From contig NZ_QMIM01000011.1 of assembly GCF_003287355.1 (NCBI RefSeq), forward strand, positions 62,001 to 126,000: 64,000 bases of DNA. The letters run 5' to 3'. Positions 9,920 through 24,374 of the stretch are shown one piece after another. The stretch is from Halorubrum sp. 48-1-W (GTDB lineage: Archaea; Halobacteriota; Halobacteria; Halobacteriales; Haloferacaceae). Below the pieces are notes generated by a model. That model searched no databases. It saw only the letters and a program-made list of their open reading frames with translations, and was not told the DNA's origin. Position 1 is the stretch's first letter; each line of letters begins with the position of its first letter. A program made the position numbers and the translations under genes.

Positions 9920-11043
9920 GCGATCACCTCCGCCAACGCGTCGACCACGGTGTCGACGTGCCCGCGATCGACCGTCAGCGGGGGGAGTAGCCGCAACACG
10001 GTACGACCCGCCGGCAACGCGAGGATCCCGTGGTCGAGGGCGAGGTCACGGAGGAGCCGGTTGGAGCCGCGTTTCACCTCGATCCCGACCATCAGGCCCT
10101 CGCCGCGGACTTCGCGGACGTCGTCGCCGAGCCGCGTCTCGACCTCCTCGCGGAGGTACGACCCGACCTCGGCAGCGTGGTCGGCGAGCGCCTCCCGTTC
10201 GATCACGTCGAGGGTCGCGCCGGCCGCCGCCGAGACGACGGGGCCACCCGAGAAGGTCGAACCGTGGTTCCCGCAGTCCTCCGCGATCCAGTCGCGACAC
10301 AGCGTCGCGCCGATCGGGAGCCCGCTCGCGAGCCCCTTCGCCGTCGTGAGCACGTCGGGGACCACGCCGTGGCGCTCGACAGCCCACATCGAGCCCGTCC
10401 GGCCGAGGCCGGTCTGGATCTCGTCGAGGACCATCGCCGCGCCCGCCTCCTCCGTGGCCTCCCGCACCGCACGCAGGTAGTCGGTCGAGGCCGGGTTGAT
10501 CCCCCCCTCACCCTGGAGGGGCTCGAGGATCACCGCGGCGGTCTCCTCGTCGACGGCCTCCAGCATCGCCGCCGTGTCGCCGTACTCGACGAACTCGACG
10601 CCGCCGGCGAGCGGCTCGAACCCCCGCTTGTACTTCCCCTTCCAGGTGGTCGCGAGCGCGCCCATCGTCCGGCCGTGAAAGCCCTGCGTCGTCGCGACGA
10701 TCTTCTCGCGACCGGTCGCGTGCCGCGCGAACTTCAGGGCGGCCTCGTTGGCCTCGGTGCCGGAGTTACACAGCCAGACGTCGTCGACGTCGCCCGGCCC
10801 CGCGTCGGACAACCGCTCGTACAGCGCCGTCCGCGCTGCGTGCGGGTACGACGCCTGGACGTACATGAGCTCCTCCAGCTGGCTCGTCGCCGCGTCGACG
10901 ACCTCGGGGTGACAGTGGCCGACCGGGGTACACGCGTAGCTCGCGCCGAAATCAAGGTACTCGGTGCCGTTCGTGTCGGTGAGGTGGACCCCCTCCCCGC
11001 TGGCGATCGCGATCGGTTTCTCCGAGAAGACGAAACCGCTCAT
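9916..11043 (-). CDS. argD: [LysW]-glutamate semialdehyde (acetylornithine-type) aminotransferase
   Basis: 375 residues of the class III aminotransferase family. The PLP lysine lies in TTAKGLASGLPIGAT, the cofactor-binding Asp in VLDEIQTGLGRTG, and the phosphate-cradle region is NSGTEANEAALKFAR. It transfers an amino group from glutamate to the carrier-bound semialdehyde to form carrier-bound ornithine. It starts MSGFVFSEKPIAI and overlaps argB and argE by 4 bases on each side. Confidence 0.94.
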   Translation of the reverse strand: MSGFVFSEKPIAIASGEGVHLTDTNGTEYLDFGASYACTPVGHCHPEVVDAATSQLEELMYVQASYPHAARTALYERLSDAGPGDVDDVWLCNSGTEANEAALKFARHATGREKIVATTQGFHGRTMGALATTWKGKYKRGFEPLAGGVEFVEYGDTAAMLEAVDEETAAVILEPLQGEGGINPASTDYLRAVREATEEAGAAMVLDEIQTGLGRTGSMWAVERHGVVPDVLTTAKGLASGLPIGATLCRDWIAEDCGNHGSTFSGGPVVSAAAGATLDVIEREALADHAAEVGSYLREEVETRLGDDVREVRGEGLMVGIEVKRGSNRLLRDLALDHGILALPAGRTVLRLLPPLTVDRGHVDTVVDALAEVIA

Positions 11044-12014
11044 GCGTCGACCGCCTCCGTGTCCTCGGCGTCGTCGCCGTCCTCGACGCCATCACCGTCC
11101 TCGACGCCATCACCGTCCTCGACGCCGTCCGCGCCGAGCGCCGAGCGCTCGATCGTCGTCCCGCCGCCGCCGAGCGCGGCGAGGACCGGATCGTCGGCGT
11201 TCGCGTCCCCGACGACGACGCGACCGGAACCGCCGGCGAGCGCCTCCGTCGCGGCCATCACCTTCTTACCCATGAACCCCTCCGCGGCCCCTTCGAGGGT
11301 CGCGAGTTCGTCGGGCGTCGCCGCAGACTCGATCAGTGTGTCCGGGTCCTCGGGGTCGGCGTAGACGCCCGCCACGTCCGTCAGCAGGACGAGGTCCGCG
11401 CCGAGCGCGCCCGCGACCGCCCCAGCTGTGCGGTCGGCGTCGGCGTTGACGGGGGTCACGCCGCCATCACCTTCGTTGCCCGCCATCGGGGGCGAGACGA
11501 CGGGGGTGTAGCCGTCCGCGAGCAGGCCGGCCAGCAGGTCGGCGTTCACCGACTCGATCCTGCCGGAGTGTTCGCCGCGGCGGATCTTCCGTTTGCCGTC
11601 CTCGACCACGCGGACCGCGGACTTGCGGGGCCCCGAGAGGAGCCCGCCGTCGACGCCCGAGAGGCCGACCGCGTCGACGCCGGCCCCGCGGAACAGCGCC
11701 GTCAGTTCGGTGTTGAGTTTTCCCGCCATCGCCATCGTGAACGCCTCCATCGCGTCGGCGTCGGTGAACCGGCCGGTGACGCCGGAGGCGGACTCGACGT
11801 ACTCGGGTTCCATCCCCAACTGCTCGATGGTCTCGTCGACGACCGTCGAGCCGCCGTGGACGACGACGACCTCTCTGCCGTCGTCGACGAGGGTTGCGAC
11901 GTCCGCGACCGCGCCGGCCGGGTCGACCGCCTTCGCGCCGCCGATCTTGACGACGACGGGGGGGTCGACAGCGTCGCCTCCGCCGTCGGCGGACGCGCGT
12001 CCGGTCCCGCTCAT
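11040..12014 (-). CDS. argB: [LysW]-L-glutamate kinase (ArgB/LysZ type)
   Basis: 324 residues of the amino acid kinase family. The phosphate loop VVKIGGAKAV and the second glycine site VVVHGGSTVVDE are visible near the N-terminus. It phosphorylates the carrier-bound glutamate. The C-terminus carries an acidic tail of repeated GVEDGD units encoded by an 18-bp tandem repeat at about 11077-11128, probably dispensable and of recent expansion. It overlaps argC and argD by 4 bases. Confidence 0.93.
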   Translation of the reverse strand: MSGTGRASADGGGDAVDPPVVVKIGGAKAVDPAGAVADVATLVDDGREVVVVHGGSTVVDETIEQLGMEPEYVESASGVTGRFTDADAMEAFTMAMAGKLNTELTALFRGAGVDAVGLSGVDGGLLSGPRKSAVRVVEDGKRKIRRGEHSGRIESVNADLLAGLLADGYTPVVSPPMAGNEGDGGVTPVNADADRTAGAVAGALGADLVLLTDVAGVYADPEDPDTLIESAATPDELATLEGAAEGFMGKKVMAATEALAGGSGRVVVGDANADDPVLAALGGGGTTIERSALGADGVEDGDGVEDGDGVEDGDDAEDTEAVDA

Positions 12015-13096
12015 GGCGACCCCACGGGGTGAAGCCCCCCGAACTCCAGGCCGGCGGTCTCGGGCAGTCCGAGCGCGACGTTCACAGCGTGGACCGCCTG
12101 GCCGGCCGAGCCCTTCGTCATGTTGTCGATCGCCGAGAAGACGACGACGCGCCGGTTGCCGGGGTCGAGTTCGAAGCCGACCTCGCCGTGGTTCGTCCCC
12201 GCGACCGACTTCGGCTCGGGGTAGCGGTAGACGCCGCCCCCGCCGGAGACGATCCGCATGAACGGCTCGTCCGCGTACGCGTCGCGATAGCTCGTCCAGA
12301 GGTCCGCCTTCGAGACGGGCTCGTCGGGGAAGACGTGGCAGGTCGCGCTCGCGCCGCGGACCATGTCGACCGCGTGGACAGTGAAGGAGACGGAGAGTCC
12401 GAGGTACGCCTCGATCTCCGCCTCGTGGCGGTGGCCGGTCGGCGCGTACGGCCGCACGACGCCCGAGCGCTCCGGGTGCGAGGAGGCCGCGCCGCCACCG
12501 GCGCCTCCCTCCGAGGAGCCGACTTTCACGTCGACGACGACCTCGCCGGTCTCGGAGCCGAGCACGCCCGCGTCGACGAGCGGTTTGAGCCCGAGGATCG
12601 TCGCGGTCGCGTTACAGCCGCCGCCGGCGATCAGCTCCGCGCCGGGGAGGTTCTCGCGGTTAAGCTCGGGGAGCGCGTACTCCGCGCGCTCGAGGTACTC
12701 CGGCGACTCGTGGCCGTCGTACCACTCGTCGTAAGCGTCCTCGGCGGGGAGCCGGAAGTCGGCCGAGAGGTCGACCACCGTGTCCGCGACCTCGAAGTAC
12801 TCGTCGACCCGTCCCATCGAGACGCCGTGGGGCGTCGCCGAGAAGAGCACGTCGACGGACTCGAGGTCGTCGGGGTCCGAGAAGCGCAGGTCGAGCCCGC
12901 GCAGGTTCGGGTGCGAGCGACCGACGGTCATGTTGTCGGCCGAGCGCGACGTGGCCTGGACGACGTCGAAGTTCGGGTGGGACGCGAGGATCCGCAACAG
13001 CTCGCCGCCGGTGAAGCCGGTGCCGCCGACGACGCTCGCGGTGTAGGTTTCGGCCGTTTCCCGTTCTGCGTCCATCCCTCCGGCCGTCCCGCTCAT
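12011..13096 (-). CDS. argC: [LysW]-glutamyl-phosphate reductase (ArgC/LysY type)
   Basis: 361 residues. The NADP-binding start is TASVVGGTGFTGGELLRIL, and the catalytic cysteine is in IAGGGCNATATILGL. A loop rich in Ser/Gly (VGSSEGGAGGGAASSHPER) matches the family's substrate region. It reduces carrier-bound glutamyl phosphate to the semialdehyde. Overlaps of 4 bases join it to argX and argB. The first dozen residues are variable, so the true start could be an internal Met (MDAERETAE). Confidence 0.94.
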   Translation of the reverse strand: MSGTAGGMDAERETAETYTASVVGGTGFTGGELLRILASHPNFDVVQATSRSADNMTVGRSHPNLRGLDLRFSDPDDLESVDVLFSATPHGVSMGRVDEYFEVADTVVDLSADFRLPAEDAYDEWYDGHESPEYLERAEYALPELNRENLPGAELIAGGGCNATATILGLKPLVDAGVLGSETGEVVVDVKVGSSEGGAGGGAASSHPERSGVVRPYAPTGHRHEAEIEAYLGLSVSFTVHAVDMVRGASATCHVFPDEPVSKADLWTSYRDAYADEPFMRIVSGGGGVYRYPEPKSVAGTNHGEVGFELDPGNRRVVVFSAIDNMTKGSAGQAVHAVNVALGLPETAGLEFGGLHPVGSP

Positions 13097-14061
13097 AGGA
13101 CGACCTCGTCGGCGGCGTCTTCGGCGTCGGCGTCTTCGGCGTCGGCGTCTTCGGCGTCCGCGTCGATAGCGTCACCGTCCGAGCCCGCGGCGTCGGCCGC
13201 GAACGCCTCGGCTTTGGTCTCCAGCCAGTCGACGACCCGTGCGGGGACGTCGACCTCGCTGGCCTCCGTGAGCGCTTTGAACTCCACCGTGTGGTTCACC
13301 TCGTGGACGGTGTACTCGCCGGAGTCCTCGCCGCCGACCTCCATCAGGTCGATGCCGAGCATCCCGCCGCCGACGGCGTCGGAGGCCCGCTCGACCAGGT
13401 CGAGCGCGCGGTCGTCGATCTCGAACTCCGCGGTCGTCCCGCCCTTCGCGGCGTTCGTGAGCCAGTGGTCCGACGAGCGCGTCATCGCGGCGATCGGCTC
13501 GCCGTCGACCGCCACGACCCGGATGTCCCTGCCGGGTTTGTCGACGAACTCCTGGACGTAGAACACCTTGTGCTCGTAGTGACCGAGCGTCTCCTTGTGC
13601 TCTAAGATCGCCTCGGCGGCGCTGCGGGTGTCGATCTTCGCCATCAGCCGGCCCCACGAGCCGACGACGGGTTTGAGCACGCAGGGGTAGCCGAACGACT
13701 CGATCGCCTCCATCGCGGCCTCCTTCGTGAACGCGACCTCCGTCGCGGGCGTGGGGACGTCCGCCTCCGCGAGCGCGAGCGAGTTCTTCGCTTTGTCCGC
13801 ACAGACGTCGCCCGTCTCGGGGGAGTTCACCACGGGGACGCCGTAGCTGTCGAGGAACTTCGTCGCGTACAGCGAGCGGCTCGTGGAGAGACAGCGGTCG
13901 ACGACGATGTCGAGGTCGGCGACGTTCGCCGTCGTCGACTCCAGGCCGAACCGCTGTTTGCGCACGTCGATCTTCTCGACGTCGTGGCCGCGGTCGCGGA
14001 GCTCCTCCAACAGGAGCTTCTCGTCGCGGCGGACCCGCGAGTAGAGGATCCCTATGCGCAT
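13093..14061 (-). CDS. argX: Glutamate-LysW ligase ArgX (LysX family, ATP-grasp)
   Basis: 322 residues of the ATP-grasp LysX/ArgX family, which ligates glutamate (ArgX) or alpha-aminoadipate (LysX) to the C-terminal Glu of the carrier protein. The N-terminus MRIGILYSRVRRDEKLLLEE is typical, so the ATG at 14061 is chosen over the GTG nine bases upstream. VLKPVVGSWGRLMAK and EVNHTVEFKAL are ATP-grasp motifs near residues 125 and 270. Haloarchaea usually make lysine by the diaminopimelate route, so an arginine role is inferred. The C-terminus is an Asp/Ala/Glu repeat tail (DADAEDADAED). Confidence 0.92.
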   Translation of the reverse strand: MRIGILYSRVRRDEKLLLEELRDRGHDVEKIDVRKQRFGLESTTANVADLDIVVDRCLSTSRSLYATKFLDSYGVPVVNSPETGDVCADKAKNSLALAEADVPTPATEVAFTKEAAMEAIESFGYPCVLKPVVGSWGRLMAKIDTRSAAEAILEHKETLGHYEHKVFYVQEFVDKPGRDIRVVAVDGEPIAAMTRSSDHWLTNAAKGGTTAEFEIDDRALDLVERASDAVGGGMLGIDLMEVGGEDSGEYTVHEVNHTVEFKALTEASEVDVPARVVDWLETKAEAFAADAAGSDGDAIDADAEDADAEDADAEDAADEVVL

Positions 14062-14102
14062 GTCGACCACTCGCGTGTCGCCGTCGTGACGGTCGTCACC
14101 AT

Positions 14103-14291
14103 CTATTCTCCCCAGTCCTCCTCGAGTTCGGGCGCCTCCTCCAGCGTGACGGGGTCGAGCGAGATGACCTCCAGTTCGGTCCCGGTGACCGGACTGTCGA
14201 TTATCTCGCCGACCTCGACGTCGGCCGGAAGTTCGATCTCCTCGCCCGTGATCGGGTCCTCTGCCAGCACCGGGTCGGTTTCGGTCGTCAT
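14103..14291 (-). CDS. argW: LysW/ArgW-type amino-group carrier protein, without cysteines
   Basis: 62 residues from the ATG at 14291 (an in-frame ATG at 14321 would add 10 basic residues that do not fit the family). It ends ELEEDWGE, the hallmark C-terminus of LysW, whose final Glu carries the growing amino acid. Where typical LysW has two CPxCG zinc-ribbon knuckles, this protein reads DPITG and SPVTG, so all four Cys positions are replaced. The remaining core (ELPADVEVGEIIDSP) aligns well. It heads the argWXCBDE(F) block with its own TATA-like region and lies 41 bases from argX. Confidence 0.9.
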   Translation of the reverse strand: MTTETDPVLAEDPITGEEIELPADVEVGEIIDSPVTGTELEVISLDPVTLEEAPELEEDWGE

Positions 14292-14401
14292 CGTGAACGG
14301 TACTCGCCGCCGATAAAACATAAACCCTTCGAACTTATAATCTGTGTTACATTACACGAAGAGTCCTCTAACGGTACAGAAAGGCAACGGACGGGCCGTG
14401 T

Positions 14402-14448
14402 GAAATCCGATATCAGATTTCAGTAATTAGTTGTCCCCTCGCGGGGAC
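14402..14448. promoter_or_regulatory. Hairpin and 20-bp inverted repeat in the argH-argW spacer
   Basis: Two symmetric elements lie between argH and argW. 14433-14448 is a perfect hairpin gtcccc/ggggac with a 4-base loop, well placed to terminate argGH transcripts. 14402-14421 is a near-perfect 20-bp palindrome (gaaatc-cgatatca-gatttc, one mismatched pair), which could be an operator for the downstream argW promoter. The argW TATA-like AT tract lies at about 14309-14340. Confidence 0.45.
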
Positions 14449-14550
14449 GGCGGCGATCGCGGCGGTCGCGGCGGCTGTTTGGGCTGCCGGGAGCGCTGGA
14501 ACCGTTTGGGGTGCTGGGACGGGGGGGTCGAACCCGCGTCGCGGACCGGC

Positions 14551-16137
14551 TCAGACATACGTCGCCACCTCCGCCTCCAGCCGGTCGCTCGCGACGGCGA
14601 GCGCGTCACTGCGCGCCTCCAGCGCCCCGCGGTCGTCGTCGATACCCGCCTCGCTCGCCGCGAGCGCCTCGGCGACCGCCCCGGGGGCGGGCCCGCCGGT
14701 CGAACCGCGGCTCGCGACGCTGTGGACGGGGTCGAGCACAGCCTCCACGTCCTCGCGGCTCACGTACGTCGAGAGGGGGTCACCCGTGATCTCCCGTGCG
14801 GCCTCGTCGACTTTCCCGGCCGCGGTCGCCGGCGTGTCGTCGTCGCCGATCCCCTCGGCGGCGGCCGCGACGATCTCGTGGGCGCTCCGGAAGGGCATCC
14901 CCCCCATCGCGAGCAGGTCGGCGACGCCCGTCGCCGTCGAGAAGCCGTCGCCGGCGGCCGACGCGAGCTCCTCGACCGCCCAGTCGGCGGTCGCGACCGC
15001 GCCGGCGGCGACCGCTGTCGCCTCCCGCACGTCGTCGGCGATCGCGAACACGCTCGCGTGCGCGCGCTGGAGGTCGCGGTTGTACGCGCGGGGGAGCCCC
15101 TTCAGAAGCGAGAGCGTCCCCGTCGCCTCGCCGATCGCGTCGCCGGCGACGCCGCGGGTCAGCTCCAGCGTGTCGGGGTTCTTCTTCTGGGGCATGATCG
15201 AGGAGGTCGACGAGTAGTCGTCGGACAGCTCGAGAAACCCCCTGTTCGAGAAGAGGATCAGGTCCTCCGCGAGCCCGGACAGCGTCGTCGCGAGCGTCGC
15301 GCACGCGGTCGCCCCCTCCGCGAGGAAGTCGCGGGCGGAGGCCGCGTCCATCGAGTTGTGGACGAGCCCGTCGAACCCGAGCAGGTCGGCGGTGCGCTCG
15401 CGGTCGACGTCGAACGGCGTGCCCGCGAACGCGGCCCCGCCGAGCGGCGAGCGGTTCGTCCGGTCGTACGCGCCGAGCAGGCGCTCGGTGTCGCGGGCGA
15501 CCCCGCCCGCATACGACAGCAGGTAGTGGCCGACCGTCGTGGGCTGGGCGGGCTGGAGGTGGGTGTACCCCGGCATCACGGTCTCCGCGTGCTCGCCCGC
15601 GACGTCGACGAGCGCCTCCCGCAGGGTCAGCGTCGCCTCGGCCGCCGAGAGCAGGTCCTCTCGCAGCCGGTAGCGGATACACGTCGCCACCTCGTCGTTC
15701 CGGGAGCGCGCCGTGTGCATCCGGCCGCCGTCGGGGCCGATCCGGTCGATGACGGCCGTCTCGATCGCCTCGTGGACGTCCTCGCCGTCCGGGAGCGCGC
15801 CGTGGCCGGCGTCCTCGACGTCCGCGAGCGCTACGAGGATCTCCCCCGCGACCGCGTCGTCGACGATCCCCTGCTCCGCGAGCATGACCACGTGCGCGCG
15901 ATCGACCGCGAGGTCGGCGGGGAAGATGGCCTCGTCGGCTGTGAGACTCGAGAGGAACTCGCGGGCGGGGCCGCCGCTGAACCGATCGCGGCGGACCGCG
16001 GTACCGCCCTCGGCCGCGTCGCCGTCGCTCGAGGAGCCCGCGGCCGCGTCGCCGTCGGCACCGATCCCGCCAGGAGCGGGGCCGTCCTCGCCGGGAGCGG
16101 AGCCGTCCTCGCCGGAACCGGAGTCGTCCTCGCTCAT
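14551..16137 (-). CDS. argH: Argininosuccinate lyase
   Basis: 528 residues. The fumarase-superfamily signature SSIMPQKKNPD carries the catalytic serine loop, and TARSRNDEVAT and YTHLQPAQPTT are further substrate-site motifs. It cleaves argininosuccinate to arginine and fumarate. The first about 45 residues are a Gly/Asp/Ser-rich low-complexity extension before conserved sequence starts at RDRFSGGPAREFL, so translation could start later. The ATG directly abuts the argG stop codon. Confidence 0.95.
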   Translation of the reverse strand: MSEDDSGSGEDGSAPGEDGPAPGGIGADGDAAAGSSSDGDAAEGGTAVRRDRFSGGPAREFLSSLTADEAIFPADLAVDRAHVVMLAEQGIVDDAVAGEILVALADVEDAGHGALPDGEDVHEAIETAVIDRIGPDGGRMHTARSRNDEVATCIRYRLREDLLSAAEATLTLREALVDVAGEHAETVMPGYTHLQPAQPTTVGHYLLSYAGGVARDTERLLGAYDRTNRSPLGGAAFAGTPFDVDRERTADLLGFDGLVHNSMDAASARDFLAEGATACATLATTLSGLAEDLILFSNRGFLELSDDYSSTSSIMPQKKNPDTLELTRGVAGDAIGEATGTLSLLKGLPRAYNRDLQRAHASVFAIADDVREATAVAAGAVATADWAVEELASAAGDGFSTATGVADLLAMGGMPFRSAHEIVAAAAEGIGDDDTPATAAGKVDEAAREITGDPLSTYVSREDVEAVLDPVHSVASRGSTGGPAPGAVAEALAASEAGIDDDRGALEARSDALAVASDRLEAEVATYV

Positions 16138-17367
16138 CTACGCGGAGTCGTCGTTCGTGGCGCCGCCGTCGGTGGCGATCTCGGGCTTTCTCACGCCCGC
16201 GCTCACGTCGTTGGCGAGGCGCTCCTGGAGCCCGTGGTACTTCGCGACGCCCGTCGCGTCCGACTGGGCGATACCGGCGACGTCCTCCGTGTTGAACGAG
16301 GCCATCTCCTCGGAGTACACCGCGTACTCGGAGTCGCGGGCGACGACGCGGCAGTTGCCGCCGGAGACCTTGACCGTCGCCGTGCCGGTCACCACGTCCT
16401 GCGTCTCGTCGATGAAGGCGTTCAGCGCGTCCACGACGGGCGCGAAGGTGAGCCCCTGGTAGGCCTTCTCGGACCACTCGTGTTCGATCCCCTTCTTGAA
16501 CGAGCGCTCGTTCTTCGTCAAGACGAGGTCCTCGAGCGCGCCGTGGGCGGTGAGCAGGACGGTCGCGGCCGGGTGCTCGTAGTTCTCGCGCACCTTCAGC
16601 CCGAGCATGCGGTCCTCCATCACGTCGGTGCGGCCGATCCCGTAGCCGCCCGCGTACTCGTTGAGGTGCTGGATGAGCGGGACCGGGTCCATCTCCTCGC
16701 CGTCGACGGCGACGGGGACGCCCTCCTCGAAGGTCACCTCGATGGTCGTCTCCCCCTCGGGCTCGGCGGTCCACTCGTAGATGTCCTCCGGCGGCTCGTA
16801 GTTCGGGTTCTCCAGTTTCCCGCCCTCGACCGCGCGTGACCAGATGTTCTCGTCGATGGACCAGACGCCGCCGTCGCCGGCCTCGACGGGCAGGTCCTTC
16901 TCGGCCGCGTACTCGATCTCCCACTCGCGGGTGAGCCCGAGCTCGCGGACGGGCGCGATGACCTCGAGGTCGGAGCCGCGCCAGACGGCCTCGAACCGGA
17001 GCTGATCGTTCCCCTTCCCCGTACAGCCGTGTGCGATCGCGTCACAGCCCTGCTCCTCGGCGACCTCGAGGATCGCCTCGGCGATGACGGGACGCGCCAG
17101 GGCGGTCCCGAGCGGGTAGCCCTGATACGTCGCGTTCGCCTTCACCGCATCGAAACAGAGATCGGCGAACTCGGCCTTGGCGTCGACGACGTGGAGGTCG
17201 AGTCCCAGCGCCTCCGCGGTCTCTTCGGCCTCGTCGAACTCGTCGGTCGGCTGCCCGACGTCGACGTTGACGCCGATGACCTCGTCGTAGCCGTACTCCT
17301 CTTTCAGGATCGGTACGCAAACCGTGGTGTCGAGTCCTCCGCTGAACGCGAGTGCAACGCTCGTCAT
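16138..17367 (-). CDS. argG: Argininosuccinate synthase
   Basis: 409 residues. The PP-loop ATP site is ALAFSGGLDTTVC at the very N-terminus, and AHGCTGKGNDQLRFE and YEHPAATVLLTAHG are family motifs. It condenses citrulline and aspartate with ATP. It is the first gene of the arginine cluster, with a TATA-like box about 28 bases upstream and no leader, so argGH form the leading transcript. The N-terminus exactly matches the family start (MTSVALAFSGG). Confidence 0.96.
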   Translation of the reverse strand: MTSVALAFSGGLDTTVCVPILKEEYGYDEVIGVNVDVGQPTDEFDEAEETAEALGLDLHVVDAKAEFADLCFDAVKANATYQGYPLGTALARPVIAEAILEVAEEQGCDAIAHGCTGKGNDQLRFEAVWRGSDLEVIAPVRELGLTREWEIEYAAEKDLPVEAGDGGVWSIDENIWSRAVEGGKLENPNYEPPEDIYEWTAEPEGETTIEVTFEEGVPVAVDGEEMDPVPLIQHLNEYAGGYGIGRTDVMEDRMLGLKVRENYEHPAATVLLTAHGALEDLVLTKNERSFKKGIEHEWSEKAYQGLTFAPVVDALNAFIDETQDVVTGTATVKVSGGNCRVVARDSEYAVYSEEMASFNTEDVAGIAQSDATGVAKYHGLQERLANDVSAGVRKPEIATDGGATNDDSA

Positions 17368-19023: not shown

Positions 19024-19072
19024 ACGTACCGGTTCGGCCGCCCCGTGGAAAGGTGTTACCGAGTCGGCCGCG

Positions 19073-19160
19073 GTCGCCTCAGTCGGCCCAGTCGTCTCCG
19101 CCGGCCCAGTCGCCTCAGTCGGCCCAGTCGTCTCCGCCGGCCCAGTCGCCTCAGTCGGCC
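19073..19160. repeat. 36-bp tandem repeat, about 2.4 copies, upstream of hemL
   Basis: Copies at 19073-19108 and 19109-19144 and a partial copy to about 19160. Each contains gtcgcctcagtcggcccagt followed by cgtctccgccggccca. Being a multiple of three it keeps an open minus frame (Thr-Gly-Pro-Ala-Glu type repeats), which artificially extends the hemL frame upstream. Confidence 0.85.
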
Positions 19161-19172
19161 GGGACCGATCGC

Positions 19173-19619
19173 CTACATACCGTCGTCGCTGCGGAGCATT
19201 ATCGCGCCGCTGGCGAGCATGAGGGACGCGAGCACGACCATCCCGAGGTCCCACGGCATCGCCGCGGTCATCGTTGCGTCACCGCCCATGCTCCCCATCG
19301 CGCCACCCCCACCGTCCATCGATCCGTCCACGCCACCCATACCGTCCCCGGCCAGTCCACCCATCAGGCCGGTCGCCAGCGCCGCCTGGTTCGCGAGCAT
19401 GACGACGGCGTACGCGAGCATCAGCCCGCCGCTCGTCCCGTCGGCGAGGGGAACCGACGGCGCGAGGAGGAGGGCACCGTGGACGACGACCACGAGGCCG
19501 AGAAGGAGCATGAGCCACATGCTCGCCGTCGTTCGAGTCGCCCCGAGCGCGCTCGCGAGCGAGTAGCCGCCGGAGGCGAACGCGATCGCCGCGCCGTACA
19601 GTCGGCTGTCGGATACCAT
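19173..19619 (-). CDS. Small haloarchaeal membrane protein with Met/Gly-rich loop
   Basis: 148 residues starting [14 protein letters not shown]. Four hydrophobic helices are visible, at about 6-25, 35-57, 65-85 and 122-142. Between helices 3 and 4 lies a loop of alternating Gly, Met and Asp ([19 protein letters not shown]), with further Met residues after it. I do not recognise a characterised family. The Met-rich loop is reminiscent of soft-metal (copper) binding stretches, but there is no supporting context. It lies between hemL and the ammonium transporter, all on the same strand. Confidence 0.7.
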
Positions 19620-19740
19620 GCGGTACGTGGCGACGGTGGGGACAAAAGCGTTGGTCGGTCGTGTGCCGGTTCCGCGAGGAAGTGGTCCGCGGAGGGTCAC
19701 CCCCGAGAAGCCACCGGAGCGAGCGCGTTCGGCCGTCGAA

Positions 19741-21420
19741 CTACACCGCCTCGGGACCGGTCTCGCCGGTCCGGACCTGAAGGGCGTCCTCGACCGGCAG
19801 GATGAACACCTTGCCGTCGCCCGGTTCGCCGGTCTCCGCGGCCCCGCGGATCGCCTCCGCGACTTCGTCGGCCGGGATGTCGGCGACGACCACGTCGACT
19901 TTCACCTTCTGGTGGAGGTCGACGGTGAACTCCTCGCCGCGCCACTGGCCCGTCTTCGCGGGCTGTGAGCCGCGTCCGGAGACGTTCGTCACGGTGAGCG
20001 AGGGCGCGTTGACCTCGGCGAGCGCCTGTTTGATGTCGCCGAGCTTGTCCGGGCGGACGATGGCGGTGACCATCTTGATCGCCGTGCCGTCCTCCGCGCC
20101 GCCGTCGGCACGCGGGGAGCCGTCGACATCGCTCGAGGAGGCGACCGTCCCGCCGTCGGTGCTGACGGTCGGCTTGCCGAACTCGGGATACGTCTCGACG
20201 CCGTGTTCGCTGACGTCGAGGCCGTCGCGCTCGTGTTCGGGCGTGACGCGGGCCTGACCGACGGCCTTGAACACGCCGAAGACGGCGGCGGTCGCGGCGA
20301 CCGTCCAGACGGTGATGACGGCGACCCCGATCACCTGCGAGACGAGCAGGCTGGAGGAGAAGCCGTCGACGTGGACGAACGGCAGCGCGAGCACGCCGAT
20401 GACGCCGGCGGAGCCGTGGACGGGGAACACCGCACAGACGTCGTCGATCTTCATCCGGTCGGCCGCGAACTCGAAGACGAGCGGGAGCTGGAGGCCGCAG
20501 ACAAGCGCGACCAGGATCGCTCCCCACCACGTGACGGCGTTCGCGATACCCGTCACGCCGACGAGACCCGCGAGCAGGCCGTTCGCGACGTACAGCGTGT
20601 CGACCTTCTTCGTGAGGTACAGCGAGGCGAGCGCGCTCCCGACCCCGCCCGCGGCCATGCCGAGCGTCGTCGCCAGGGCGACCCGGCCGACGACGGCGTA
20701 GCCGCCGAGCACGAGTTCGCCGCCGTCGACCGCGAACACGGTGGCGGTCGTGCCGACGTTGAAGCCGTACCAACCGAACGCCAGGACGAGGGTGCCGAGC
20801 ACCGCGAACGTCATCGAGTGACCGGGGATGACGTTCGTGGAGCCGTCCTCCGCGTAGCGGTCCATGCGCGGACCGATCACGTACGCCGCGGTGAGGCCGG
20901 CGATGCCGCCGACCCCGTGGACGATCATCCCGCCCGCGAAGTCGGTGAATCCGAGCCCCGCGCCGCCGAGGAAGCCGCCGCCCCAGGTGATGCCCGCGAC
21001 GACGGGGTAGATGACCGCCGAGAGGGCGATCGTGTACCCGACGTACGCGCGGAGTTTGGCTCTGCCGGCCACCGCCCCGGAGACGATCGTCGCGGCCGTC
21101 ATCGCGAAGACCGCCCCGAACAGCCAGCTGTTGACCCAGTCGCCGTCGCCGAGGGCGGTCGCCGGGGAGAAGCCCGCGCCGCCGGCGACGCCCTCGATCC
21201 CGAAGCCGATCAGGAAGTACACGAGGACGCCGACGCTCCACGTGAGCAGGTTCTTCGTGAGCTGGTTGGCGACGTTCTTCGCGCGGACCTGCCCCGCCTC
21301 GAGCATCGCGAAGCCGGCGTGCATGAAGAAGATGAGGAAACACACCACCGCCACCCACATCAGGTTCACCCCTTCCGCGAGCACGCTCGGGTCGATGCTC
21401 GCGAGAACGCCGGTCGTCAC
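19741..21420 (-). CDS. amt: Ammonium transporter fused to a PII (GlnK-like) regulatory domain
   Basis: 559 residues. Residues 1 to about 400 are an Amt/Mep/Rh ammonium transporter with 11 likely helices (signatures include [16 protein letters not shown] and [12 protein letters not shown]). After a variable linker, residues 448-559 are a complete PII domain: [13 protein letters not shown], the T-loop [17 protein letters not shown] and the C-terminal [19 protein letters not shown]. Separate GlnK proteins plug Amt pores when nitrogen is plentiful; here the regulator is covalently attached. The T-loop Tyr that is uridylylated in enterobacteria is Trp. The start codon is GTG at 21420. The upstream region is long and AT-rich. 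Confidence 0.93.
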
Positions 21421-21898: not shown

Positions 21899-22930
21899 TT
21901 ACTCCGGTTTCAGTCCCTCACCCTGAACGCGCATCACGGCCTCGCCGTCGGCGAGGTTCGGCGCGTCGACGAGCCGGACGATCCGCTTGTTCCCCTTCGA
22001 CTTGCGGAGGTACATCCGGAACGTGGAGGCGTGTCCGAGGATGTTGCCGCCGATCGCCTGGGTGGGGTCGCCGAAGTAGGAGTCGGGGTTCGACGCGACC
22101 TGGTTGGTGACGAGGATGGCGGTGTTGAACAGATCGCCGATCCGCATCAGGTCGTGGAGGTGTTTGTTGAGCTTCTGCTGTCGTTCGGCGAGTTCGCCAC
22201 GCCCGACGTACTCGGCACGGAAGTGGGCGGTCAGCGAGTCGACGCAGACGATCCGGATGGGCCACTCGCCCTCCTCGTGTTCGCCCGCGAGTTCCTTGGC
22301 CTTCTCGGCCAGCAGGATCTGGTGGTTGGAGTTGAACGCCTTCGCGACGTGGATCTGATCGAGGAAGGCCTCGATCAGTTCCTCCATCGCCTCCTCGTTC
22401 CCCGGCGTGCCCTCGATCTCGCGCCGTTCCATCTCGTCGGCGAGGACCTCGTCGTCGAGCCCGCGTACCATGTCGTCGATCCGCTCGGGCCGGAACGTGT
22501 CCTCGGAGTCGACGAAGATACAGCCGCCGTCGAGACCGCCGTTCTCCCGCGACAGCTGGACGTTGACGGCCATCTGGTGGGTCACCTGCGACTTGCCGGA
22601 CCCGAACTCGCCGTACACCTCCGTGATCGACTGGGTCTCGATGCCGCCGCCGAGGAGCTCGTCGACCTCCGGGATCAGCCAGGAGAGCTTGCCGATCTCC
22701 TGGCGGCGTTCGAGCACGGTCGCGCCCGTCTCGAACCCGCCGACGTCGGCGGCGTCGCGGGCGGCGTTGATGATGTCGCTCGCGGACGACTCGCCGATGT
22801 CGGCCGTGTTCGACATCTCGCCGGGGCTCGCCACCGCGATCGACTGGTAGCTCTCGAATCCGTTCTCGACGAGCTTGTCCGCGGTCGCCGGGCCGACTCC
22901 TGGGAGGTCCTCGAGTTCGTCTTCAGGCAT
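21899..22930 (-). CDS. radA: DNA repair and recombination protein RadA
   Basis: 343 residues, full length. The N-terminal helix-hairpin-helix domain ([19 protein letters not shown]) is followed by the RecA-type core with Walker [10 protein letters not shown] and Walker [14 protein letters not shown], plus the DNA-binding loop region [16 protein letters not shown]. RadA forms filaments on single-stranded DNA for homologous recombination. The ATG at 22930 gives the standard [11 protein letters not shown] start; a GTG six bases upstream is also in frame. There is no intein in this copy. Confidence 0.97.
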
Positions 22931-22954
22931 GTACACCCGGCTTGTGCGGCTTCG

Positions 22955-23666: not shown

Positions 23667-24140
23667 CTACTCCGCGAGCGCGGAGTAGACGCCGCCGAGG
23701 ACCGTCCCGTAGACGACGTGGCCGACGAGGCTCTCGACGCCGACGTTCGGTAGCGGCGGCGCGCCCGGGAAACCGACGGCGCCCAGCCAGATCGGCATCA
23801 CGATCACCGCGAGCACGATCCACACGAGGAGCCCGTAGCCGGCACCGACGGCGAGACTCGTTCCGGCGGAGCGTCCGAGGTCCGGCTTCAGGCTCGCGAT
23901 CGCCGCGAACCCGAGACCGATGACCGCGCCGTGAGACATGTGGATCGCCCAGCCGACGGCGCCGGCCGGACCCTCGATTCCGTACATCGCCGGGATCGCC
24001 ATCTGCAGTACGCCGGGGGTCATCATCGACATCATCGCGCCGAAGACGAGACCGCCGACCAGTCCACCGGTCACGCCCGCCTTCCAGTTACCGGTCTCCG
24101 TCGATACCTCGGTCGTCGCGGTGGCGGTTTCGGTTGCCAT
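23667..24140 (-). CDS. Conserved haloarchaeal membrane protein (DUF6789-like)
   Basis: 157 residues, starting MATETATATTEVSTETGNW. A hydrophilic N-terminus is followed by four hydrophobic helices. GGLVGGLVFGAMMSMMTPG and MSHGAVIGLGFAAIA are characteristic of a haloarchaeal family often annotated as a histidine kinase by error; there is no kinase motif here. Function unknown. It is divergent from the XPD-like helicase gene. Confidence 0.7.
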   Translation of the reverse strand: MATETATATTEVSTETGNWKAGVTGGLVGGLVFGAMMSMMTPGVLQMAIPAMYGIEGPAGAVGWAIHMSHGAVIGLGFAAIASLKPDLGRSAGTSLAVGAGYGLLVWIVLAVIVMPIWLGAVGFPGAPPLPNVGVESLVGHVVYGTVLGGVYSALAE

Positions 24141-24210
24141 ACCGGTCCGTCGACACGTAACCGGTAATATATGCCGCAATGTGGCGGGGAGGACGCACGC
24201 TCGCGGAACG

Positions 24211-24218
24211 TATATATA
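24211..24218 (+). promoter_or_regulatory. TATA box upstream of the helicase
   Basis: TATATATA lies 26 bases before an in-frame ATG at 24237 and further from the preferred GTG start at 24375. The strong box and exact leaderless spacing suggest transcription begins near 24237. Confidence 0.55.
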
Positions 24219-24374
24219 CGTTGTGAAACTAATGTGATGGGGGAAACTCGCCGCGACCGTTCGTTCGGAGGCAACTCCATCGAGTTCTCGTTCGACCGCC
24301 CATCGGCGTTCCCCCCCGACCACTTCCGCCGAGGTACCCGACCCCTTTTGCCCGATGGCGCCGAAACGGCGACC

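Follow-up and report, generated by a model that had tools for sequence, protein, structure and literature searches.

We detected that the ammonium channel Amt and its regulator PII are encoded as one protein in the 64,000-nucleotide stretch of Halorubrum DNA analysed here (the window). Taken as a whole, the evidence is quite probably explained by a self-regulated ammonium channel carrying a tethered PII, the Amt half of which has been replaced repeatedly by recombination.

Both domains were found in a single stop-free reading frame of 559 codons, as the earlier note on this DNA had proposed, and the interval's own frame on the plus strand is broken by a stop (Table 1). Pfam Ammonium_transp (PF00909) matched residues 22-411 (E 3.6e-86, 289.8 bits against a cut-off of 23.2, profile positions 2-399 of 399) and P-II (PF00543) matched residues 449-553 (E 8.1e-26, 90.8 bits against a cut-off of 25, profile positions 2-102 of 102). 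The NCBIfam model TIGR00836 (amt) gave 304.6 bits, below its curated subfamily cut-off of 343.3, and the equivalog models of E. coli GlnK/GlnB and AmtB (NF007946, NF008111 and NF007947) gave 86.0, 85.4 and 111 bits, below cut-offs of 181, 202 and 657; the fused protein is a relative, not an equivalog, of these E. coli proteins. The Amt half terminates in a YPEFG tail, identical in 141 of 141 fused proteins, and D160, H168, F220 and H335 are among its invariant residues in an alignment of 44 sequences; we take D160, the twin His and F220 to be the pore and gate residues. The best PDB matches were 4ozj for the PII part (E 1e-51) and 6eu6 for the channel part.

Table 1. Features of the fused gene and its upstream neighbour, in window positions
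Feature	Position	Strand	Remarks
Fused amt-PII gene	19741..21420	-	559 aa; GTG start at 21420; stop at 19741-19743
Amt (channel) half, residues 8-415, type A	20176..21399	-	Profile match and genus comparison
Linker, residues 416-447 (about 32 residues)	20080..20175	-	Variable, acidic, Gly/Ser-rich
PII (GlnK-type) half, residues 448-559	19744..20079	-	Q39, R47, K58 and K90 (E. coli numbering) retained
T-loop, residues 484-501	19918..19971	-	Motif GQWRGEEF; conformation in the model not confident
Phe498 codon	19927..19929	-	Equivalent of the uridylylated E. coli PII Tyr51, by alignment
Trp493 codon	19942..19944	-	Equivalent of Tyr46, not the modified residue, by alignment
5' recombination-border zone, residues 7-12	21385..21402	-	Estimated from nine type A/type B comparisons
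radA recombinase gene, upstream neighbour of amt-PII	21899..22936	-	92-97% identity across the Halorubrum loci compared, whatever the Amt type

The fused gene is the sole PII and the sole Amt found in its own genome (3.58 Mb, 69 contigs, 99.87% complete), which carries one glutamine synthetase gene; a separate glnK-amt pair, raised as a check in the earlier note, was not found elsewhere in the assembly. The chance that amt and glnK are two adjacent genes joined through a sequencing or assembly error is negligible. Such neighbours do exist, amt-glnK pairs being described in PMC3831643 as usual in haloarchaea; many haloarchaea have a short separate PII gene (46 of 80 genomes of the family contained short PII frames only), and the loss of one stop could fuse neighbouring genes. 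Nevertheless, a PII match was detected in 51 of the 52 genus genomes, in every one of the 51 with a match in a stop-free frame of 559-620 aa and with the Amt half detected. The same in-frame fusion in these independent assemblies, and at loci of other genera, refutes the error reading and bears out the absence of a frameshift.

Two genomes of the genus sample stand apart. The lone genome that lacks a PII match (G020; 2.7 Mb, 92% complete) has glutamine synthetase and may represent an assembly gap. Another (G030) has a second, separate PII adjoining a frame with an Amt match, the only such case in the sample.

The fusion is not an oddity of one genome, being genus-wide and recurring in other haloarchaeal genera. 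The nearest named relatives (best-segment identity 83-93%) are Halorubrum, one 'Halobellus captivus' record, one metagenome bin and Halopenitus, and the other genera with fusions include Halopenitus, Halostella, Natrinema, Halorussus, Halobaculum and Natronomonas. From 188 loci we obtained 197 PII frames, of which 142 also contain an Amt match and 55 lack one, counts that hold duplicates where the genome set and the named contigs partly overlap (e.g. G003/L123 and G049/L137); L001 and L002 are the same gene, both kept in the residue counts, with L002 left out of the trees and identity tables. By frame length, 23 genomes of the same family outside the genus had fused PII only, 11 had both forms and 46 separate PII only (80 of 86 listed genomes, the six removed including five from group g6 with separate PIIs), and the corresponding numbers for other families were 37, 12 and 31 (80 hand-picked genomes, spread over genera and favouring multi-PII genomes); a fusion in both tallies is an open frame of at least 500 aa, its Amt content not verified one by one. 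In a quick tree built from 169 Amt sequences, 11 changes between fused and separate are required, which makes repeated fusion or fission probable. Outside the class, no PII in a frame longer than 343 aa was present among the matches listed for a 246-genome phylum sample.

Several loci (L166, L154, L113, L045, L053, L128 and L132) contain a fused amt-PII together with one or two nearby free PII genes, as if an extra soluble PII were kept beside the tethered copy.

The T-loop motif GQWRGEEF reported in the earlier note is present in the translated protein, and its Trp had been read there as the replacement of the uridylylated Tyr. The uridylylation site of bacterial PII is given as Tyr51 in PMC7919409 and PMC8395244, and in our alignment with E. 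coli GlnB the Trp falls at position 46 (Tyr46) and the Phe of RGEEF at position 51. We therefore rejected Trp as the uridylylated residue; Trp46 is normal in haloarchaea, occurring in 196 of 197 PII frames (142 of 142 fused and 54 of 55 separate). The conclusion drawn in that note, lack of uridylylation, still looks right for the fused PII, resting now on Phe at position 51 and on no GlnD-family enzyme being found: a PF08335 search gave no match in the host genome and was positive in the E. coli, Caulobacter and Corynebacterium controls. The combination of Tyr51 and GlnD that characterizes the proteobacterial uridylylated PII is thus not seen here. The GlnKs of Haloferax mediterranei are uridylylated according to evidence cited in PMC3831643; the Haloferax volcanii control genome gave no PF08335 match, so any enzyme there would, by this test, lie outside that family.

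All 55 separate PIIs have Tyr at position 51; the 142 fused ones are divided between Tyr (78) and Phe (64). The loci with Phe51 come from the genus search and from the named Halorubrum, plus L062 ('Halobellus captivus') and L075 (the metagenome bin), and Tyr51 is retained in Halopenitus and Haloparvum. Phe51 was accordingly rejected as a general result of fusion; its limitation to Halorubrum-type loci shows that it marks the genus and not the fusion as such. The substitution was probably one event, and any connection of it with the fusion is conjectural.

The L062 contig, labelled Halobellus captivus, carries a Halorubrum-type gene (Amt 94% and PII 90% identical to the window, with Phe51) in the Halorubrum gene order, and the label may be outdated or wrong.

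Arg47, Gln39, Lys58 and Lys90 were found in 197 of 197 haloarchaeal PII frames, and the B-loop TGxxGDGK is present and, together with Q39, K58 and K90, invariant across the 142 fused PIIs. We take the B-loop and these three residues to be those that contact ATP and 2-oxoglutarate. Their retention with Arg47 makes a tethered, effector-gated plug the likely mechanism, by analogy with GlnK-AmtB. The Amt halves would form the usual trimeric channel of the family; the C-terminal tail would lead through the flexible linker to the GlnK-type PII, with a PII trimer beneath the same channel trimer. At low 2-oxoglutarate the three T-loops are predicted to put Arg47 into the three pores, and with Mg-ATP and 2-oxoglutarate the T-loops would rearrange and PII would undock yet stay tethered, both steps being modelled on the conserved residues and the GlnK-AmtB precedent. 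Covalent modification of residue 51 would have no part in gating, as the position is Phe. Since the cell's only PII would be tied to the membrane, PII regulation of soluble targets (e.g. glutamine synthetase) would be either lost or exerted at the membrane. The earlier note had held that gating must work by tethered movement; with the fusion confirmed, tethered docking and undocking is what follows if the protein works like GlnK-AmtB.

Conservation, expressed as the mean share of the commonest residue, was 0.94 in the T-loop, 0.89 on the cytoplasmic face and 0.60 on the extracellular face, the two faces being separated by the helices of the structural model and an N-out topology that we assume from AmtB. 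The AlphaFold model is a monomer (44 sequences; mean pLDDT 73.8, with the means of the five models ranging from 56 to 74). The T-loop and most of the linker have pLDDT below 50, as does the stretch 399-445; low confidence in the linker is as expected of a flexible tether. Arg47, present in 142 of 142 fused PIIs, lies in a T-loop that the monomer model leaves at low confidence.

It is unlikely, in our judgement, that the fusion is translated and then processed, through a cut in the linker or an internal start (e.g. Met450), to release a free soluble GlnK trimer. The linker does look flexible, no PII other than the fused copy was found in the genome, soluble Haloferax GlnK activates glutamine synthetase in vitro by the account in PMC3831643, and Met occupies PII position 3 in 130 of 142 fused proteins. 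The same Met, however, is common in separate GlnKs (40 of 55), so it does not indicate a fusion-specific start, and the linkers of 20 proteins have no standout conserved Met. A conserved internal Met start for free PII is thus unsupported by the linkers and the Met tallies, which considered Met starts alone and not GTG or TTG.

A vestigial PII, forming merely a structural tail on an ungated channel, is very improbable: Tyr51 has been lost and GlnD was not found, but every one of the 142 fused PIIs has R47, Q39, K58 and K90, and few parts of the protein are as well conserved as the T-loop.

The tethered plug is combined in Halorubrum with strongly divergent channels. Counting each genome once, the 51 genus genomes have Amt halves of type A (30), B (17), C (3) or D (1), with between-type identities of 57-65% (74-76% for B versus D) using one reference per type, and the PII halves of the other 50 genomes are 87-97% identical to that of the window. 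The gene order ACT-like gene (our own label for a gene without a Pfam match), radA, amt-PII, hemL, followed by argG where the contig reaches it, is shared by the named Halorubrum loci of types A, B and C. As judged from these comparisons, the four Amt types share a single conserved locus and are each attached to a PII that varies little.

The closest Amt outside the genus differs by type: Halopenitus and code group g3 for type A (88%; g22, 84%, for the type-A locus L079), g11 for type B (87%), g8 or g72 for type C (86-88%) and g10 for type D (87%). These identities span 84-88% for the seven loci examined, drawn from the locus set that holds duplicates. The PII halves of the same seven loci are 91-100% identical to other Halorubrum versus 83-89% to outside sequences.

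For DNA, nine A/B pairs were 73-76% identical in the Amt half, 92-97% in radA and 90-95% in PII. Their best change points fell at residues 7-12 and 417-448, the latter within the linker region, with log-likelihood gains of 74-137 compared with 7-36 in four same-type controls; the search excluded the 560 bases 5' of the gene. The A/B exchange borders are thereby placed close to the start codon and within the linker. Over the 250 bases preceding the start, identity was 69-84% in the A/B pairs (at least 79% in seven of nine, 74% and 69% in the others) and 79-85% in the four same-type controls. Over the 400 bases after the gene it was 80-94% in eight A/B pairs; the ninth, which includes the window, gave 47%, and the window has an extra frame there. 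One A/C pair gave less clean borders, with the 5' change point in the upstream region and the 3' one inside PII (residue 460).

Forcing the Phe51 group (34 of 81 rows) into one clade lowers the log-likelihood of the Amt data by 202.9 and is rejected by them (p-AU 1.2e-5). The PII data with column 51 masked do not reject it (p-AU 0.62), which is weak evidence because the PII half is short (110 columns); the group was chosen for this test after the pattern had been seen, and in the free PII tree two Halopenitus rows fall inside it. The radA+ACT tree (23 type A including the window, 9 B, 2 C) requires 10 type changes against a shuffled mean of 10.1, and, counting its well supported branches only, type A still needs at least 7. 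The unlinked glutamine synthetase tree (19 A, 8 B, 3 C; the best 30 of 52 genus genomes) likewise requires 10 against a shuffled mean of 9.8, with at least 6 forced for type A. Both marker trees are weakly resolved (inner branches starred: 14 of 34 and 9 of 27, respectively). Five type changes were needed on the argG tree (25 rows), 10 on the PII-half tree and 2 on the Amt-half tree. Among 14 syntenic genes compared in ten genomes, 13 had all pairwise identities of at least 80% and amt-PII alone fell to 67%; the filter, which asked for a match covering over 60% of the length in six or more of the ten genomes, may drop other strongly diverged genes. In nine genera with at least two named loci, the Amt tree required more changes than the PII tree for four (Halorubrum 4/2, Natrinema 4/2, Halorussus 2/1, Halostagnicola 2/1) and equally many for five.

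The types look randomly distributed on the trees of flanking and unlinked genes, which points to repeated exchange of the Amt half by recombination. On this comparative evidence, homologous recombination has time and again put divergent haloarchaeal versions in the place of the Amt half while the PII half and the flanks stayed, and the two halves are separable in evolution, with different histories. The types could alternatively be ancient paralogues sorted by differential loss, with the PII halves kept alike by gene conversion. Other haloarchaea do have two or more PII copies, and G030 has its second PII beside an Amt-matching frame. We consider the paralogue account quite improbable, given one fused gene per genome in all 51, named Halorubrum loci lying without exception between radA and hemL, 10 changes required on each of two trees, and types that are closest to different outside genera, as expected of imports.

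Under the favoured account, repeated recombination of the Amt half, a further possibility is that the four channel modules circulate genus-wide as cassettes on a fixed tethered PII and that selection keeps several of them, as a trans-species polymorphism. If so, selection could act, for instance, through pH and ammonia regimes or through viruses that use the outer face. We hold this tentatively and find it on balance doubtful, because neutral recombination at the conserved linker and cytoplasmic face could yield the pattern, divergence of the outer face is ordinary and type C includes just two named species. Arms-race divergence of the outer face was not supported: A and B are 38% identical outside, compared with a mean of 40% (sd 6) for 1148 non-Halorubrum pairs of like transmembrane identity. 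H. alkaliphilum and H. vacuolatum, the two species named in type C, are presumably soda-lake alkaliphiles, a habitat that would fit ecological sorting with n of two; on the radA+ACT tree the neighbouring row of H. vacuolatum, L079, is type A.

Several neighbouring features were observed. Upstream of radA, a small DUF6789 membrane protein gene (window 23667-24323, minus strand), which is not in the 14-gene set, falls into identity classes of 80-89% and 54-61%, with one value of 72%, among the Halorubrum loci that have it; both classes occur with Amt types A and B, and this gene is perhaps another exchanged one. Between amt-PII and hemL lies a 175-aa hydrophobic frame without a Pfam match (window 19173-19700, minus strand), with a similar stretch in L062, L063, L064, L070, L082 and weakly L084 among 80 named loci. 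Upstream of the likely hemL start, a 36-bp tandem unit (window 19062-19160, 2.6 copies, 96% match) lengthens the hemL open frame by a repetitive extension.

A co-directional LysW-type arginine/lysine biosynthesis cluster (window 11040-17367), encoding an amino acid kinase, a semialdehyde dehydrogenase, a LysX-like ATP-grasp protein, argH and argG, lies downstream of amt-PII and hemL. Cyanobacterial PII controls the arginine-pathway kinase, and by that analogy the proximity of the cluster to amt-PII is suggestive. Within it, a 72-aa frame ending in EEDWGE (window 14103-14321, minus strand) resembles the LysW carrier protein; it has DPITG and SPVTG at the positions where we would expect the zinc-binding Cys pairs.

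A channel joined to its own plug has a fixed Amt-PII stoichiometry and cannot dissociate fully, so that the roles of ATP/ADP/2-oxoglutarate and of Tyr51 modification become testable one by one. In genomes with no PII besides the fused copy, the question arises whether PII exerts any control over glutamine synthetase and other soluble targets. Repeated exchange of the channel half alone suggests that several channels, about 60-75% identical, each work with the same regulator. At this locus domain-by-domain recombination in archaea, and perhaps balancing selection too, has left a clear natural record. We recognised no report of a haloarchaeal Amt-PII fusion or of Amt-half exchange in the literature searched, most subscription journals lying outside the search; reviews of PII evolution may mention them.

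Both families and their partnership are well known, and the single-chain form is widespread in haloarchaeal genomes. The AmtB-GlnK systems of E. coli and Haloferax mediterranei (AmtB1-GlnK) comprise the same two families, the latter being the same haloarchaeal amt-glnK partnership, and the fused PII keeps Arg47 and the ligand residues. By the account in PMC3831643, ammonium shock is followed by co-precipitation of Haloferax GlnK with AmtB1, and the free GlnKs reported there activate glutamine synthetase in vitro, whereas the only PII of the Halorubrum host is tethered. AmtB and GlnK are two proteins able to part; the Halorubrum protein is one polypeptide with Phe in place of Tyr51. The PDB entry 4ozj, named Nitrogen regulatory protein P-II by the search tool, is one we take to be Haloferax mediterranei GlnK2. 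Within QWRGEEYTVDLHQK it differs from the fused PII at residue 51 alone and shares Trp46; it is free-standing and keeps Tyr51, whereas the Halorubrum PII is fused and has Phe51. The channel match 6eu6 is presumably the Ks-Amt5 entry. Ks-Amt5 of anammox bacteria is described in PMC12918730 as an Amt-histidine kinase fusion, with a cytoplasmic signalling domain covalently attached; there a kinase is attached and Amt serves as the sensor, whereas in Halorubrum the attached domain would be the channel's own inhibitor. Haloarchaea are described in PMC4500145 as replacing resident genes by divergent homologues from distant relatives; compared with such replacements, half a gene is the unit exchanged here, its borders lie close to the start codon and the domain boundary, and the types are scattered genus-wide.
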